A model generated the notes under the pieces. It was not told where the DNA came from. It saw only the letters and a program-made list of their open reading frames with translations, and made no database searches. A stretch of 64,000 nt of DNA from Flavobacteriia bacterium (GTDB lineage Bacteria > Bacteroidota > Bacteroidia > Flavobacteriales_D > Crocinitomicaceae). Shown here piece after piece: positions 2,223 through 55,107 of the stretch (position 1 is the first letter of the stretch; each line of letters opens with the position of its first letter). Made by a program: the position numbers and the translations under genes. The DNA lies in assembly GCA_947450325.1 (NCBI GenBank), contig CANFUT010000022.1, positions 1-64,000 on the forward strand, in the 5' to 3' direction.

Positions 2223-3977
2223 CTATCGAACAACGTTGATTTTAAATTGCACATTTTTCAACATGAAATGCTTTTTACCACTATTGAAAATGTAAATTCT
2301 AATCACATCATATTGTTGCAAACAGTCAATATCTGAAGATTCTTCAAACACAAATTTTGTCCAATGATTCTTGGCCTCAAATCGGTCGTTATACAAAGGA
2401 ATTGCCTGATAATGTCTTAATTTTTCATCCTTGGAATGGGCGTCAATTACTAAAAATACATCTGACCAATCAGCTTCAAAATTTTTCTTTTCAATGTCTA
2501 CAGTAACGTAAAAACGCTTGTTTTTTCTATCCACTGGAAAATTAAAATCAACTGTATTTATGTACAAATCTGTTGGCTTCACTTCTATTTCAGCGAAATT
2601 TGAATTCAAATTAATCTCTTCTACTTTCTTGCCAAAAGGCGCGCAAGCCAAAGTGAAATTCCATCGATCATGATTTTTTTTGTCCCAAATATTTAAACTT
2701 TCAAGGTAATTCTGCTTCGTAAATCGCTGGTTGACAAAAATCCCTGTTAAAGAAGCATACAGTCGATTCGTTCCGATGAGCGCGAAAAGAACAAAACTTA
2801 ACGCGACCCATTTTTTCCAATGCTTTAGCAACTCAAAAATCGGCAAAATCAGAAAAACCCCATGTTCAGTATAAGGTCTTGCACCAAAGGAAGATTCATA
2901 GTCCCAGCACCACCAAGATGAAATTACATAGACACTGATTCCGAAATAGCAGAAAAACCAAAACGCTTTGAAACGATTTTGAAAAAACAATAAAATCAAT
3001 CCTAAAATGGTCAGCAGAAATATCGGTGAATGCAAAAACAAGCCAATTCTAAAACTAAAAAGTGATTGAAAAATCATGGCTTTTCCGAAGTTGAATCCTT
3101 CGCCGTTATAAGCACCAATAATCCAATTCCCCGTTTGCAATTTCCAAGAAAAAAACAAAATACTGATGAATGAAAGAAAAGCAAATGCGGCGAAAATCAA
3201 CCATTTCCCTTTAAATTGAAACAGTTTTGTGAAAAAAAGTTTGGTTTCCTCCCATGACCCAAGTAAGAAAGGTACAATCAAAACGACTAAAATATTTGTC
3301 GGTCGAATCAACGCAATTGCACCTAAAGTCAACCCTAAAAATACCATCCATTTGAATGAAAATTGTGCTTGCAATTTCAAAATCAACCAAGCAAAAAGTG
3401 CAAAAAGAAAGAATGAATAGCCGTGAGAAATACTCGGCGTGTGAATCGAATAAAAAAGCAAAGGTGTTGCCAAGTAATAAAGTGGCACTAACCATTGAAT
3501 AATTGCGGTTGATTCTGGAAATAAACGTTTTAATACTTGATTGAAAAAGAAAATTCCAGCTAAAGTATAAAACAAACTTCCAAGGTAAAATCCGATGATA
3601 AAAATGTCAGAATAGCCATCCACAGGCTGACCAAAAATCCAAGACAGCAAACATGATAAAAGAAAAAATGGCGTTTGTAAAACAGAAATTCCAGGAAAAC
3701 ACTTGTTGTATTTATTTCCTTGTTTATCAAAAATCAAGTAATGTTGTTGAAGTTCCAGTTTTCGAACATTTCGCTCGACTTCAGCTGTTTTTTCAAAATG
3801 TTTTTCGTGATAAATGAAAAGCGCAGGCAAATATGCATAATAACCACTTCCATCTGAACTGATTACGTTGGACAATCCATTTTTACGCTGAAGATATAAA
3901 ATACTAAAAACACAAACCAACAACAGAAATAACCATTGCACCTTGCTTTGAGATTGAAGTTTGTTAAATATTTTCAT
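2223..3977 (-). CDS. Polytopic GT-C type membrane glycosyltransferase (putative)
   Basis: The protein has 584 residues with about 11-12 hydrophobic segments from residue 14 to about 400, then a soluble C-terminal domain of about 170 residues. The first periplasmic loop carries SSDGSGYYAYLP. An acidic residue in that loop is typical of GT-C enzymes, which transfer a sugar from a polyprenyl-phosphate donor at the outer face of the inner membrane. The acceptor is unknown. The same layout and loop (EADGRGYYEFLP) occur in the 575-residue protein at 41820-43547. Each protein lies next to a DPM1-like GT2, which supports a donor-synthase/transferase partnership. Family membership is inferred from layout and context; I recognise no exact family. 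Confidence 0.75.
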   Translation of the reverse strand: MKIFNKLQSQSKVQWLFLLLVCVFSILYLQRKNGLSNVISSDGSGYYAYLPALFIYHEKHFEKTAEVERNVRKLELQQHYLIFDKQGNKYNKCFPGISVLQTPFFLLSCLLSWIFGQPVDGYSDIFIIGFYLGSLFYTLAGIFFFNQVLKRLFPESTAIIQWLVPLYYLATPLLFYSIHTPSISHGYSFFLFALFAWLILKLQAQFSFKWMVFLGLTLGAIALIRPTNILVVLIVPFLLGSWEETKLFFTKLFQFKGKWLIFAAFAFLSFISILFFSWKLQTGNWIIGAYNGEGFNFGKAMIFQSLFSFRIGLFLHSPIFLLTILGLILLFFQNRFKAFWFFCYFGISVYVISSWWCWDYESSFGARPYTEHGVFLILPIFELLKHWKKWVALSFVLFALIGTNRLYASLTGIFVNQRFTKQNYLESLNIWDKKNHDRWNFTLACAPFGKKVEEINLNSNFAEIEVKPTDLYINTVDFNFPVDRKNKRFYVTVDIEKKNFEADWSDVFLVIDAHSKDEKLRHYQAIPLYNDRFEAKNHWTKFVFEESSDIDCLQQYDVIRIYIFNSGKKHFMLKNVQFKINVVR

Positions 3978-49300: not shown

Positions 49301-49463
49301 GAAACAAAAGATTTGGTGTAAAAATAAGGAAAATCGCGACTTGATATAATTTTCGATTCACAAAAGAATTAAAAAGGAGTTTTTGATAAAATTTATAGTC
49401 AAAAAATCTTTCAAAAAGTTAAATTATTAAGTGTTTGAAGCGAAAAGTAAAATGAATAAATTC

Positions 49464-49492
49464 TTGTGTTTGGTATTAAATTTATATCTTTG
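49464..49492 (+). promoter_or_regulatory. MNT/HEPN promoter, nearly leaderless
   Basis: TTG at 49464-49466, an 18-nt spacer and TATCTTTG at 49485-49492 match both consensus elements. The ATG at 49500 begins 7 nt after the -7 box, so the mRNA leader is zero to a few nt. This rules out the longer upstream frame. Confidence 0.78.
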
Positions 49493-49499
49493 GTTTAGG

Positions 49500-49802
49500 A
49501 TGAAAATTGAAGAAATCAAATTAAAGCAAATTCAAGAACTTTGTAAAATTAACAAAGTAAAATCCTTGTTTGTTTTTGGTTCAGTTTTACGATCTGATTT
49601 TAATGAATCTTCAGATATCGATTTGATTGTTGATTTTGATGAAAAAGATCCAATTAAATATACCGATTTATACTTTAACTTAAAAGATAAATTAGAAACG
49701 ATATTAACTCGACACGTAGATTTACTTGAAGAAAGAGCCATAAAAAATAAATTTTTTAGAGAAGAACTTGATAATACCAAAGTGAAAATTTATGGATATT
49801 AA
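49500..49802 (+). CDS. MNT-domain nucleotidyltransferase antitoxin (MntA type)
   Basis: The 100-residue protein is a minimal nucleotidyltransferase. Active-site motif GSVLRSDFNESSDIDL has G27-S28, R31-x-D33 and D39-x-D41, with a third acid D74 in RHVDLLEE. In type VII toxin-antitoxin pairs this enzyme AMPylates its HEPN partner on a tyrosine and so silences it. All three metal-binding acids are kept, so it should be active. It overlaps the HEPN gene by 11 nt. The start is fixed by the promoter at 49464-49492. Confidence 0.88.
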   Translation: MKIEEIKLKQIQELCKINKVKSLFVFGSVLRSDFNESSDIDLIVDFDEKDPIKYTDLYFNLKDKLETILTRHVDLLEERAIKNKFFREELDNTKVKIYGY

Positions 49803-50130
49803 GATAAACACTTGGTTGCTTGACATTCAACAATGTATCGACGAAATATTTGTTTTTAATAATGAAAACACGGATTTTAAAAAATATAAATCCGACTTAA
49901 AAACAAAGAAAGCAATTGAACGGAATATTGAAATAATTGGAGAGGCAGTGAACCGTATACTAAAAGTTGATAATGACTTTCCATTAAAAAATGCCAAAAA
50001 TATTATTGGAACGAGAAATAGAATTATACATAGCTATGATAATATATCCGATGAAGTAATTTGGACTATTGTTCAGCGAGAATTACCCGATTTAAAAATT
50101 CAAATTGAAAAATTACTAAAACAAGAATAA
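49792..50130 (+). CDS. HEPN-domain (DUF86) RNase toxin (HepT type)
   Basis: The 112-residue protein is helical and carries the HEPN motif RNRIIHSY: R75-x4-H80-x-Y82. This is the exact RX4HXY pattern, in which Arg and His cut RNA and the Tyr is the AMPylation target of MntA. AIERNIEIIGEAVNRILK is typical of DUF86. The start overlaps the antitoxin end, so the pair is translated together. Phage-defence and plasmid-maintenance roles are known for such pairs; neither is shown here. Confidence 0.9.
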   Translation: MDIKINTWLLDIQQCIDEIFVFNNENTDFKKYKSDLKTKKAIERNIEIIGEAVNRILKVDNDFPLKNAKNIIGTRNRIIHSYDNISDEVIWTIVQRELPDLKIQIEKLLKQE

Positions 50131-50655: not shown

Positions 50656-51372
50656 ATGACAAAAACATTTCTATCTGCACGTTGGGAAAATTTGATCATG
50701 GCGAACTACGCCGTGAATCCTGAAGTATTAATTCCCTATTTACCCAAAGGTGTCGAACTGGACTTTTATGAAGGAAAAGCGCTGGTCAGTTTGGTAGGTT
50801 TTATGTTCAAAAAAACAAGTTTATTTCGCATTCCTATTCCTTTAATGGGCACATTTGAAGAAGTGAATTTGCGGTTTTATGTGAAAAGAATTGACGGAAA
50901 TGAAATCAAACGTGGCGTTGTTTTTATCAATGAAACTGTGCCTTATAAGCCAGTTGCGTGGATTGCGAATAAACTTTACAAAGAACATTACATCGCCATT
51001 CCAACCAAAAATAAAATTCAAATAAATACTGAAAATCAAATTATTCATTACAGTTGGAAAATAAACCAACATTGGAACGAAATTAACGTAAACACAGCCA
51101 TTGAAAACAACGAAATGATCCCAAATAGTGTTGAAGAATTTATTTTTGAGCATTATTATGGTTACACGAAAATCAGCGAGGACGTTTCTCAGGAATACAG
51201 CGTAAATCATCCGAGATGGAAAGTGAACAAAGTGCTAGATTTTTCAATCAATTGCGATTTTCAGGCAATGTATGGCAATGATTTTACTTTACTAAATAAT
51301 CAACAGCCACATTCGGTCATTTTTGCTGCTGGTTCGGCAGTTACTGTCGATTGGAAAAGGAAAAAGTTTTAA
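50656..51372 (+). CDS. DUF2071 (YqjF-like) protein
   Basis: The 238-residue protein follows the DUF2071 pattern: [25 protein letters not shown] at the start (W-N-L-x-M-x-x-Y at the entry of the fold), then [19 protein letters not shown] and [12 protein letters not shown]. The end [22 protein letters not shown] is also typical. The family shares the acetoacetate-decarboxylase-like fold, but its reaction is unknown. It is followed by a DUF2256 gene 8 nt downstream. Confidence 0.85.
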
Positions 51373-51380
51373 TCCAAAAG

Positions 51381-51518
51381 ATGAAAAAGCGCGATTTACC
51401 AACTAAGATTTGCATTTTTTGCAAACGTCCTTTCACTTGGCGCAAGAAATGGGAGAAGGTTTGGGATGACGTAAAATATTGCAGTGATAAATGTAGAATA
51501 AATCGCAATAAAGATTGA
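51381..51518 (+). CDS. DUF2256 small zinc-binding protein
   Basis: The 45-residue protein is easily missed for its size. [18 protein letters not shown] followed by VKYCSDKCR is the full DUF2256 signature, with four Cys (11, 14, 34, 38) that should bind one zinc ion. The function is unknown. The ATG at 51381 is preceded by CCAAAAG and lies 8 nt after the DUF2071 stop, so the two genes are probably one transcript. Such proteins often lie beside photolyase or DUF-type genes in other genomes. Confidence 0.85.
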
Positions 51519-51681
51519 ATCAGTCTTCTAATCAAAACTTGTAATTATACAACATTCTTTAAAAATTGTGTAACGATACTTCTTTCGAAAGTAAACACCT
51601 TTAAACTTTGATTTATTTAACCACTGAATTACATAATTTTTCAGTTTAAATTCCAAGGAATCAAACTTTAAAACACAATTT

Positions 51682-52239
51682 ATGAAAAAGTATCTTCCAA
51701 TTTATCTGTATGGCTTAAGTATTATTTTAGCGGGAATCTTCTTGATTAACTCAGCGTACAGTTCTTTCAAAGAAGTGAATGTAATCATTGGTTACATGGT
51801 AACAATTGGTGCTGGATTTGCATTTACGGCGGCCATGATAAACCAAAAAAAGCAAGTACAATTTGCCTACCACAATCTACACGCTTTGGTAATGGTAATT
51901 TTTGGCGTTTTTATTCTGTTGTTTTGCGATACAATTGATAAATTATTGACAGCTACATCATATCTTTTTATTTTTTATGCTGTTTCAGAAATCACTTTTT
52001 GCAGTTGGATTTTTAATTTGCGCCAAAAAGTGGTCTTTAAAATCTTATTTATTAGAATCATTTTGGGATTAATAATAGGAATTGGAACCGTAATAACGAT
52101 GTATTTTACAACATTTCAGCTTGAAACATTTGGTGTTTTGTTCATTTTGATAGGAATTAACATCCTTCTTTATGTTCCGATTATGAAAGGAAGAGAATCA
52201 AGTGAAATGGAAAATGTGATTCAAAAACAAACAACATGA
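51682..52239 (+). CDS. HdeD/DUF308-like membrane protein (uncertain)
   Basis: The protein has 185 residues with six hydrophobic segments and short loops. This layout, with pairs of helices and Gly-rich turns such as GYMVTIGAGFAFTAAMI and IILGLIIGIGTVI, is like HdeD/DUF308 acid-resistance proteins, but I see no diagnostic motif. It ends in a polar tail (GRESSEMENVIQKQ). It is followed 63 nt later by the SOUL gene. Confidence 0.65.
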   Translation: MKKYLPIYLYGLSIILAGIFLINSAYSSFKEVNVIIGYMVTIGAGFAFTAAMINQKKQVQFAYHNLHALVMVIFGVFILLFCDTIDKLLTATSYLFIFYAVSEITFCSWIFNLRQKVVFKILFIRIILGLIIGIGTVITMYFTTFQLETFGVLFILIGINILLYVPIMKGRESSEMENVIQKQTT

Positions 52240-52302
52240 AAATTTTTAAATCGATTATCTCTGAATTTACATGTTTATTAACTTGTTCAATTTTAAATAA
52301 TT

Positions 52303-53148
52303 ATGGCAACCAACAAAACTGAAACCCAAGATTACACGGTTATAAAAAAAGAAAATTTATTCGAGATCAGATTTTATCCTGCTGCAAAATTGGCCAAAAT
52401 CACTTCAACATCTAAATCCTACCGCGATTTAGGTTATTCTGGTTTTGGCAAATTGGCAAAATATATTTTTGGAGGAAATAATGAAAACAAAAAAATTGCC
52501 ATGACTTCGCCAGTTCACATGGACATTGGAGATTCTATCTCAACAATGGCGTTTGTTATGCCTGCGCATATGACAATCAACGATCTTCCCCAACCAAACA
52601 ATTCTGAAATAACGATTGAAACCACAGAACCAGAATATGTTGCTGCTATCAAATTTGGCGGTTTTGCCAATACTGCGCGTATTGAGAAACAGAAAGTGAT
52701 TTTGAAAAAAGCGTTAGACCAAAAAGGTCTTACCTATTTTGGAAATTTCAGATACTTAGGATATAACCCTCCTTATCAACTCTTTGGGAGAAGGAATGAG
52801 GTGATTGTTGCATTAAATGAAACAAATTTTATTATGAAAAAAAAACCCACGAATAACGAGAATCTTGAAGGTTATCCGCACTATCCTGCTTCTGAGGATA
52901 TCTATAGTCAACAAAAGGAAGAAAAAGATTTGGACCCTGAAGATACCACGAAGAAAAAAACACCAAATGAAACAGAAGGCGGACGTAACGAGAAGAACTT
53001 TAAAAACCACATGTCGGGCGATGATTTAGACATTCCTGGTGGTGATTTAGATGACGAAGAAGACCAAATTGGAAATGAAGACGAAGAAAACAACTATTAC
53101 AGTTTGGGTGGAGATAATCACAATGATTTAGACGAAGATAAAGACTAA
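52303..53148 (+). CDS. SOUL haem-binding domain fused to an acidic Bacteroidota domain
   Basis: The protein has 281 residues. Residues 9-172 form a SOUL/HBP domain: YTVIKKENLFEIRFYPAAKLAKI, FGKLAKYIFGGNNENKKIAM, TSPVHM, YVAAIKFGG and PPYQLFGRRNEVIVAL, which ends such domains. From M178 a different acidic region begins: LEGYPHYPASEDIY, DPED, MSGDDLDIPGGDLDDEEDQ and ENNYYSLGGD. I recall this second part as small stand-alone proteins in other Bacteroidota, so this looks like a fusion. ATG 52834 is an internal in-frame candidate start after FI and before nine A. There is no signal peptide. SOUL proteins bind haem or related ligands; activity is not shown. Confidence 0.85.
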   Translation: MATNKTETQDYTVIKKENLFEIRFYPAAKLAKITSTSKSYRDLGYSGFGKLAKYIFGGNNENKKIAMTSPVHMDIGDSISTMAFVMPAHMTINDLPQPNNSEITIETTEPEYVAAIKFGGFANTARIEKQKVILKKALDQKGLTYFGNFRYLGYNPPYQLFGRRNEVIVALNETNFIMKKKPTNNENLEGYPHYPASEDIYSQQKEEKDLDPEDTTKKKTPNETEGGRNEKNFKNHMSGDDLDIPGGDLDDEEDQIGNEDEENNYYSLGGDNHNDLDEDKD

Positions 53149-53154
53149 TAAACG

Positions 53155-53550
53155 ATGGAAAACACGAAAAAAATAGGCATTTGGATGGATCATTCAACCG
53201 CCAACTTCATTAATTTGGATAAAGAAAAAAATAACTTTTCGATTCAATCAAATTTTACTTTTAATGACAAAGAATCTGCGCTTCAAAGAAGTGAAAGTTT
53301 GATGCACAACAAAGAAAACCATATGCATGAAAGCTACTTCAAAGAAATTGGGCACGAGATTTTGAAGTACAATCACATTTTAATATTCGGTCCAACAAAG
53401 GCTAAAACTGAACTTTTGAATTTTTTAAACAAAGATTTACATTATAAAAACATCCAAATTGATGTTAAATCAGCAGATAAAATGACTGAAAATGAAAAAC
53501 ATGCCTTTGTTTGGACGCATTTTGAAAAAGATAAAAAACAGCAATTTTAG
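53155..53550 (+). CDS. Small protein resembling the eRF1/Pelota third domain (uncertain)
   Basis: The protein has 131 residues. KKIGIWMDHSTANFINLD starts it. The C-half HILIFGPTKAKTELLNFLNK and VKSADKMTENEKHAFV resembles the core of eRF1 domain 3 or host-attachment-type proteins (FGPxxAKxEL, then DKMTxxE). Similar proteins occur beside the acidic protein of the preceding gene in other Bacteroidota, from memory. It may sense or bind ribosomes or tRNA, but this is inference. It starts 6 nt after the SOUL gene, so they are co-transcribed, and it ends at a bidirectional terminator. Confidence 0.75.
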   Translation: MENTKKIGIWMDHSTANFINLDKEKNNFSIQSNFTFNDKESALQRSESLMHNKENHMHESYFKEIGHEILKYNHILIFGPTKAKTELLNFLNKDLHYKNIQIDVKSADKMTENEKHAFVWTHFEKDKKQQF

Positions 53551-53572: not shown

Positions 53573-53601
53573 AAAAGCGCATCCGATTTGGATGCGCTTT
53601 T
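53573..53601. terminator. Bidirectional terminator before hemD
   Basis: A 12-bp perfect stem AAAAGCGCATCC (53573-53584) with GGATGCGCTTTT (53590-53601) has a 5-nt loop. It lies between the convergent eRF1-like and hemD genes. T-runs follow on both strands. Confidence 0.9.
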
Positions 53602-53620: not shown

Positions 53621-54370
53621 TTATTTTTTCTTCAAAGAATCTTTGATAAAATTCTCAATGGCTGCTGTCATAGATGGCACATTTGGTTGAGGTGCGTGTA
53701 AATCCAAACGCAAATTATTTTTAACTACAGCATTTGCCGTCGTTGGACCAAAAGCGGCAATCATCGTTTTGTTTTGTTTGAAATCAGGGAAGTTTTTGAA
53801 CAGAGATTCTATTCCTCCAGGACTAAAGAACACCAATAAATCATAGTAAACATCTTCTAAATCACTCAAATCTGAAGCAACTGTTTTATACAGCATCGCT
53901 TTGGTAAAATTGATTTTAAAATGTTCTAATGTTTCTGGAATTTTATCTCTTAAAATATCAGTACAGGGCAATAAGAATTTATCAGTTTTATGCTTCTTCA
54001 TCATTTCTGCTAATTCTTCAATTGTTTGTTTACCGTGAAAAATTTTACGTTTTCTGTAAGTAACATATTTTTGAAGATAAAGCGCCACAGCTTCTGAAAT
54101 ACAAAAATACTTCATCGTATCCGGCACTGCAAAACGAATTTCTTCAGCGATTCTAAAAAAGTGATCGACAGCTGTTTTAGACGTCATTATAACAGCAGTA
54201 TGCTCAGGGATGTTTACCCTTTGTGTTCTAAAATCTTGAACACTAACTCCTTCCACATGAATAAATGGCCTAAAATCAATTTTAAGCTTGTATTTTTCCG
54301 CGAGATCGTAATATGGTGATTTGTCCCCCTCTGGTTTGGGTTGAGAAACCAAAATTGTTTTGATGCTCAA
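53621..54370 (-). CDS. hemD: Uroporphyrinogen-III synthase
   Basis: The enzyme closes and inverts ring D of hydroxymethylbilane to give uroporphyrinogen III. The 249-residue protein has the Bacteroidota HemD start ILVSQPKPEGDKSPYYDLAEKY, FRPFIHVEGV, VIMTSKTAVDHFF, and the C-terminal half LVFFSPGGIESLF and AAFGPTTANAV. HemD sequence is poorly conserved, so the motif fit is good. No in-frame ATG exists nearby. TTG 54370 after GAGGAAA is the best start and leaves an 11-nt gap to DUF4271. A longer frame from TTG 54397 would overlap that gene. Confidence 0.9.
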   Translation of the reverse strand: MSIKTILVSQPKPEGDKSPYYDLAEKYKLKIDFRPFIHVEGVSVQDFRTQRVNIPEHTAVIMTSKTAVDHFFRIAEEIRFAVPDTMKYFCISEAVALYLQKYVTYRKRKIFHGKQTIEELAEMMKKHKTDKFLLPCTDILRDKIPETLEHFKINFTKAMLYKTVASDLSDLEDVYYDLLVFFSPGGIESLFKNFPDFKQNKTMIAAFGPTTANAVVKNNLRLDLHAPQPNVPSMTAAIENFIKDSLKKK

Positions 54371-54381
54371 TTTCCTCAGTA

Positions 54382-55107
54382 TTAATTTAAAAACCAATTA
54401 ATTTGCTCTAATATCTTGTCGTGAAGTGCGAAATAAATCAACACAAACGGCAAAATTTCGAGCGTGCAAAAATACAAAATAATATAATACCAAGTTATAC
54501 CTTTATTTATTGCAAAAATAAATCCTCTAAAAAACCTGTAAATCCACATTAACGCAGTGAACCAAACAAATATTTGTACAAAAATAGTCGTCCATTGGAT
54601 ATTAAAAGCCCAAATCAAAAGCATTAAACTGTAAATTATTCCTGCAAAATGAGCAAAAATGAAAGTGTTGATCTTGCTTTCGGTCACTGAATTTTTTTCA
54701 CCTGTAATAAAACCAACCAAGAACAATGATAACCATGGCAAAAAAACCATCAAAAAAGGAATAGGTAAAAGCAGAAAAATTATTTTAGGATTTAAATTAT
54801 TTGTTGAAGGAATTGATAAAAAAAGCAATGTACTGGCACTTACAATGTAGTTAATTATTAAAAACCAAGATGATGCATTATTCAAAGGATATTCGTCTTG
54901 AATGATTTTATCAATTTGCTTGTTTTTGTAAATCGCTTTGATCATTCCAAAAACCATTTGTTTAGAACTCAATCTTGCAAAAGCAATGATAACAAATGAA
55001 ATCGCCAGCATAAATGAAGCCACAAAAGCTATGTTTTCCGAACGAATCGAAAGACTCGAAGGGATTTCATAATTTGCACCAACAATTCCAAAACTTAATT
55101 CAAACAA
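54382..55107 (-). CDS. DUF4271 membrane protein
   Basis: The 241-residue protein has six hydrophobic segments. Family-typical patterns are FARLSSKQMVFGMIKAIYKNKQI before the second helix and a helix order ending YYIILYFCTLEILPFVLI. DUF4271 sits next to hemD in many Bacteroidota, and this arrangement is kept here. The role is unknown. The start must be TTG 55107 because a TGA is three codons upstream and the first ATG is at residue 34. Confidence 0.8.
   Translation of the reverse strand: MFELSFGIVGANYEIPSSLSIRSENIAFVASFMLAISFVIIAFARLSSKQMVFGMIKAIYKNKQIDKIIQDEYPLNNASSWFLIINYIVSASTLLFLSIPSTNNLNPKIIFLLLPIPFLMVFLPWLSLFLVGFITGEKNSVTESKINTFIFAHFAGIIYSLMLLIWAFNIQWTTIFVQIFVWFTALMWIYRFFRGFIFAINKGITWYYIILYFCTLEILPFVLIYFALHDKILEQINWFLN

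Follow-up and report, generated by a model that had tools for sequence, protein, structure and literature searches.

A SOUL domain fused to an acidic domain of an unnamed family, beside an eRF1-like gene, in two species of one Bacteroidota genus

In a stretch of 64,000 nucleotides from a Flavobacteriia bacterium (contig CANFUT010000022.1; hereafter the window), we found a gene that joins a SOUL domain, putatively haem-binding, in a single reading frame, to an acidic domain of an unnamed family. The fusion is genuine and rare, and two species of a single genus share it. It almost certainly joined genes that had been neighbours in a cassette, and the best reading of the window locus is a shortened version of a stress/ribosome-dormancy cassette found in relatives. 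As the best explanation of the whole we prefer a functional link between the two parts, acting as one polypeptide in a stress or dormancy setting, a judgement that we regard as evenly balanced. The protein is probably part of the stress response; a direct link to the ribosome seems to us rather doubtful.

Table 1. Coordinates of the fused gene, its parts and its neighbours in the window
Feature	Position	Strand	Basis
Upstream gene, 185 aa, looks like a small multi-pass membrane protein (by eye)	51682..52239	+	No Pfam match over cut-off
Decayed N-terminal leader, not in the protein	52236..52302	+	67 nt, in-frame TAA at 52294-52296
Fused SOUL-acidic gene, 281 aa	52303..53148 (including stop)	+	ORF list, Pfam, codon alignment
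SOUL domain PF04832, residues 7-169	52321..52809	+	Pfam profile
Linker and acidic domain of unnamed family	52825..53145	+	Profile A1 match at 52858-53145
ATG of M178, candidate fossil start of a once-separate acidic gene	52834..52836	+	No counterpart in sister species
Single-domain eRF1/Pelota/Balon middle-domain-like protein, 131 aa	53155..53550	+	ORF, model, structure comparison
Terminator-like hairpin, 13 pairs, past the eRF1-like gene	53573..53601	+ (matched on both strands)	Hairpin scan

The first-pass annotation of this DNA had described one open reading frame in which a SOUL domain is followed, near M178, by a different acidic domain, and profile searches bear this out. PF04832 matched the fused protein with an E value of 1.7e-45 (155.6 bits, cut-off 27, profile positions 2-172 of 173), and the profile of the acidic family that we built (A1) matched the second part. 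Position 53550, which closed the annotated interval, is the stop of the downstream gene and not the end of the fused frame. By sequence, the SOUL part also matched HEBP2 and HEBP1 chains of solved structure, at 8.6e-13 or less strongly. From M178 on, no Pfam or NCBIfam model matched at E 1. These 104 residues include 32 D/E and 12 K/R (pI 4.2, charge about -20, GRAVY -1.95). The predicted model of the full fusion was poor (pLDDT 60), with confidence below 50 across most of residues 221-281; SOUL rows were supplied only by the window and four loci, so we draw only a hint of disorder from it.

Among 40 genomes (the window's own and relatives), G004, from another species of the same genus, carries the same fused frame (locus L003) at 86% identity. 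Over the whole fused gene (281 codons) dS was 1.2 and dN/dS 0.062, and the codon alignment of the junction contains neither stop nor indel. For SOUL residues 1-170 dN/dS was 0.075, and for the acidic core (residues 188-281) it was 0.03 at a dS of 2.5, which is near saturation. The linker, residues 171-188, was the least conserved part, with 7.5 amino-acid-changing differences in 18 codons (dN 0.19). The first-pass annotation had allowed that relatives might have two separate genes and that the fusion might be an error in this strain. Relatives with two separate genes do exist, as described below, and they are what would speak for a sequencing or assembly error; the same in-frame fusion in the genome of a second species rules that error out. 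A recombined allele was considered as well and rejected. The dS of 1.2 for the fused gene stands against 0.44 and 0.50 for its two operon partners, but it is ordinary because neighbouring genes span 0.28 to 1.9 (one row with a dS of 0.15 was an antisense ORF and was excluded).

The sister species also bears on the ATG at 52834, which is present ahead of nine A as annotated and had been put forward as a start that could still give a short form. In its favour, some acidic relatives open with Met and a short lysine-rich stretch. At this site the window reads ATT ATG AAA and the sister AGC ACT GAA. Because the sister has no ATG there, a conserved internal start is unsupported, and we rejected it; that the acidic part is additionally made alone from M178 is very improbable. 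M178 may be the fossil start of a formerly separate acidic gene.

Unfused arrangements in relatives point to the origin of the fusion. Three other loci have an acidic gene preceded by a separate SOUL gene at a distance of 35-240 nt. In two MAGs named Saprospiraceae and uncultured Bacteroidetes (loci L017 and L019), the SOUL stop is followed after 36 and 35 nt, respectively, by the acidic gene. The order in G175 (L107/L131), by its label a member of the same phylum as the window and of another class, is SOUL, 31 nt, a helical protein, an overlapping acidic protein and an HPF-like gene. Its SOUL protein (L131) was the closest match outside the window's genome among 395 genomes of the phylum (76% identical). 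This protein ends in NEVIVALNAENFN followed by a stop, and its counterpart in the window is NEVIVALNETNF, directly ahead of M178. Since SOUL and acidic genes are adjacent in relatives, the fusion most likely joined cassette neighbours; the SOUL part would have retained roughly its natural C-terminus, and the acidic gene would have been incorporated nearly from its start. A further order, in L163 (G103), is acidic, HPF-like and eRF1-like, the last encoding an eRF1-middle-domain protein.

A tree of SOUL proteins (47 rows, of which 16 are at most half-length) placed the two fusion SOULs with L131 at 100/96. A wider group that also takes in L017, L019, L018, L132 and the very long-branched L142 (branch 3.3) reached 89/83, below the tool's star, and the second SOUL of the window's genome (L002) falls outside it. 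When labels were shuffled on this tree, with five labelled rows only, values as low arose in 110 of 500 shuffles for the fusion and in 98 of 500 for SOULs near a separate acidic gene, so this test alone does not demonstrate a grouping.

Cassette neighbours may also have been joined to no effect, by loss of a stop between co-directional genes whose products stay independent across a functionless link. The gaps of 35-36 nt in L017 and L019, the weak conservation of the linker and the confinement of the fusion to two species of one genus all fit such a neutral event. It sits less well with a frame kept in two species at a dS of about 1.2, and with the sister's lack of a start codon at the M178 site, which makes separate synthesis from there impossible in that species. 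We consider a neutral fusion a serious possibility, on the less probable side.

We built profile A1 from 48 of 67 acidic-domain ORFs. It matched the window, itself one of the 48 rows, at E 5.1e-38, and L003, which is not a row, at E 2.8e-37. The window domain shares 39-66% identity with the other 47 rows, and at least 52% with 37 of them. At E values up to 0.001, A1 had matches in 15 of the 150 family genomes, in 13 of 349 from the order, in 28 of 345 from the class and in 34 of 395 from the phylum. By hand count over these overlapping samples, 67 different genomes are positive, a few of them weakly (E 1e-6 to 5e-4). In our searches this acidic family of Bacteroidota and Ignavibacteria corresponded to no entry of Pfam or NCBIfam. 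A PDB profile search with the family gave a single match, at E 0.99. When plasmids were searched, 10 of 72,556 records matched, every one through the SOUL part.

After removal of 17 duplicate loci and of copies identical in the last 60 residues, the fetched loci contained 119 distinct acidic proteins, a figure that includes two overlapping pieces of the single locus L200. Fused and separate forms, both of which the first-pass annotation had proposed looking for in databases, exist: two proteins are fused to SOUL (the window and L003, in one genus), seven to a helical module, and 110 to neither, in line with its description of the acidic part as a stand-alone small protein elsewhere. The seven helical-module fusions are in L012 (1495-2004), L020 (2815-3366), L022, L046, L084, L109 and L186, and L012 (G003) comes from the same genus as the window. 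They share the C-terminal acidic domain with the window protein and differ in the N-terminal partner, which is not SOUL but a module of about 70 residues, helical by eye and in no Pfam family; in L107 it is a separate gene. Other members of the acidic family have the same domain, which in the window sits behind SOUL, and of the 99 whose length was measured, 90 fall between 75 and 151 aa. The C-terminal motif of the family is LDVPGSELDD, GNEDEENNYYS. NEDEENNY formed part of the peptide patterns by which many loci were collected, and the invariance of this segment is therefore partly a product of selection.

Locus L053 holds two acidic-family genes, at 1232-1615 and 3010-3366, 1.4 kb apart. In L015, L033, L054, L057, L077, L087, L089 and L090, two of which are named Fluviicola, the surroundings of the acidic gene are constant: upstream lies an aldehyde dehydrogenase-like gene, and downstream an AraC-like gene that faces it (names by eye).

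Within 1.5 kb of the 119 acidic genes we counted nine eRF1-like genes (two of them beside the fusions), nine Usp, six HPF-like, six Dps, three separate SOUL genes and one separate helical protein. At least one of these types was present for 28 of the 119 and none for 91, in a set where many loci span only 1.5 kb per side and some end sooner. The HPF-like neighbours are in L012, L020, L082, L084, L131 and L186, that in L020 being barely above the PF02482 cut-off (25.1 vs 23.7 bits). As controls we took loci that lack an acidic gene: none of their 42 SOUL genes had other cassette types on the same strand, and Dps lay near two of their six eRF1-like genes. In the 150 family genomes, the acidic gene occurs in 15 and the eRF1-like gene in 20. 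Eight genomes carry both, against an expectation of 2 under independence, in a count uncorrected for kinship. The two genes are neighbours in four of those eight genomes (G000, G004, G103 and G154) and far apart or on different contigs in the other four. The first-pass annotation had described the acidic gene as often near an eRF1-like gene; it sometimes is, and with 9 of 119 within 1.5 kb and linkage in four of eight family genomes, "often" is too strong. The 91 acidic proteins that have none of the neighbours looked for and the four unlinked genomes count against our preferred explanation. Neither genome with the fusion (G000, G004) has a PF02482 (HPF) gene beside it, which is a point against the dormancy reading. 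The single PF02482 match of the window's genome lies elsewhere (C4), and its single helical-module match lies away from the fusion. A scan of 51301-53200 for TAnnTTTG gave one site, within the SOUL gene.

These counts also leave room for a simpler role of the tail, as a general stress protectant (hydrophilin- or chaperone-like and disordered) that shares only a regulon with dormancy neighbours. The acidic, very hydrophilic composition and the low confidence of the (poor) model over most of 221-281 are consistent with this, and Usp and Dps are as frequent as eRF1-like and HPF-like genes near the family. Conservation of the C-terminal motif goes far beyond the needs of a bulk protectant, in loci that were partly chosen by NEDEENNY, and we hold a protectant tail to be rather unlikely. 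The functional link, the neutral fusion and the protectant tail partly overlap and are not mutually exclusive.

The downstream gene follows the fused stop after 6 nt in the window, as had been annotated, and after 8 nt in L003. Sequence profiles placed it nowhere: the best Pfam hit of the window protein scored 15.3 bits (cut-off 27), no Pfam family was matched by more than two of 13 members (best E 0.0034), and a PDB profile search with the family gave two cellulase rows (E 0.21 and 0.98) that we judged to be chance. An AlphaFold2 model from five rows had a pLDDT of 78.5. Foldseek against the PDB returned eRF1, aRF1 and Pelota as the best rows (best E 1.1e-4). VIA-align gave Balon of M. smegmatis a Z of 10.8 (3.7 A over 127 residues), Pelota 10.6 and human eRF1 9.9; among the rows listed, Balon, Pelota, aRF1 and eRF1 ranged from 7.6 to 10.8, and RNase H-like proteins of other function from 7.8 down. 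The predicted fold of the protein is thus that of the eRF1/Pelota/Balon middle domain. It had been annotated as eRF1-domain-3-like, but among the rows listed the model aligns over the middle domain (human eRF1 141-283, Balon about 114-267), so domain 3 is not supported.

Burroughs and Aravind report that three of the baeRF-1 families retain only the RNase H-fold core, and that several families recurrently adjoin HPF (PMC6514570); the eRF1-like relatives in L020, L082 and L186 likewise lie near HPF. Three-domain Balon occupies the ribosomal A site in stress, and its gene most often adjoins RaiA, occurs also in stress operons and has HdeD-like as a reported neighbour (PMC10901736). The window neighbour has the middle-domain (RNase H-like) fold in common with baeRF-1 and Balon; it differs from Balon in having one domain instead of three, and no Pfam model reaches it above cut-off. 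Neither PMC6514570 nor PMC10901736 uses the word "soul" in its main text. Literature searches for a SOUL fusion, bacterial SOUL, and SOUL with ribosome hibernation returned nothing among the matches listed, which are mostly without subscription papers and do not establish absence from print.

SOUL genes occur in 82 of 150 genomes of the window's bacterial family. To our knowledge their function there is not settled. Of 31 SOULs examined, 29 carry a hydrophobic stretch at the N-terminus (19-residue mean 1.2 or more); the sister fusion has it, and the exceptions are the window's fused SOUL and L132, which the tree places close to the fusion SOULs. In the sister, 69 nt ahead of the SOUL domain encode this stretch in frame, if the first ATG is used. 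The window has two bases fewer here, and an in-frame TAA interrupts the stretch; the leader should therefore be missing from the product. From these reading frames we expect that the window product should be soluble and that the sister product may still be membrane-anchored. A leader in 29 of 31 SOULs is hard to reconcile with a ribosome partner in the cytoplasm, unless the domain lies on the cytoplasmic side.

The window protein shares a near-full-length PF04832 match with the SOUL/HEBP family, and it differs in its acidic C-terminal domain, in the lack of a hydrophobic leader and in two residues, a Phe at the position of mouse His42 and His72. Phe24 aligns to the His of the EIRHY stretch in human HEBP2, which we take to be the mouse His42 position. 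Mouse SOUL binds haem through His42 (PMC6321638). No His was found at this position among the 31 SOULs compared, all longer than 150 residues, and the window protein thus lacks the histidine of the mammalian haem-binding type (HEBP2). His72 was present in all seven rows that we took as the cassette group (window, L003, L131, L018, L017, L019 and L132) and in none of 24 others; L142, which the tree puts in the wider group, was counted among the 24 and has Tyr there. Common descent would account for this pattern as well as function would, and we take His72 as a residue to test. Haem as the ligand of the SOUL domain is conceivable, and we lean against it.

Under the preferred functional link, the protein would be active in stress or stationary phase as a single polypeptide. 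Haem or another tetrapyrrole would be the small amphipathic ligand of its SOUL domain, and the tail, polyacidic and probably flexible, would dock to a cassette partner or to ribosomes entering dormancy. Those ribosomes would also be the target of the neighbouring eRF1-like protein, in keeping with what has been proposed for baeRF-1 and shown for three-domain Balon. A stricter version, in which SOUL senses haem or porphyrin, perhaps through His72, and the tail and the Balon-like neighbour act on ribosomes, would make this a ligand-gated ribosome-dormancy factor; we think it quite improbable. If true, it would tie ribosome hibernation in Bacteroidota to tetrapyrrole or redox state. Through the fusion and the three unfused neighbourhoods, one SOUL clade is linked to the unnamed acidic family and, by way of that family, to HPF-type and Balon-like genes, so that both parts can be tested by a few knockouts. 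The acidic family is spread across the phylum, and the fusion offers a testable hint at the function of both parts.

The end of the upstream gene overlaps the old leader start (ATGA). Among the genus genomes compared, the three genes at 51682-53550 are present in G000 and G004 only. A DUF2071 gene is directly followed by hemD in G001, a penicillin-binding-protein gene lies beside hemD in G003, and G002 (73% complete) gave no hemD match. Two species may have gained the genes, or the others may have lost them. In the window, hemD (PF02602) and a DUF4271 gene (53621-55107, minus strand) converge on the fusion operon. We rejected a link to haem synthesis through this convergent hemD, because the hemD-DUF4271 pair exists in G001 and G003 as well, without the cassette beside it. 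Farther upstream, at 49431-50130, an MNT-like nucleotidyltransferase gene is followed by a HepT-like gene (PF18765 and PF01934, above cut-off). This pair of toxin-antitoxin type sits between the penicillin-binding-protein gene and the DUF2071 gene, and it is missing in the sister locus L162, where just 244 nt separate the flanking genes.
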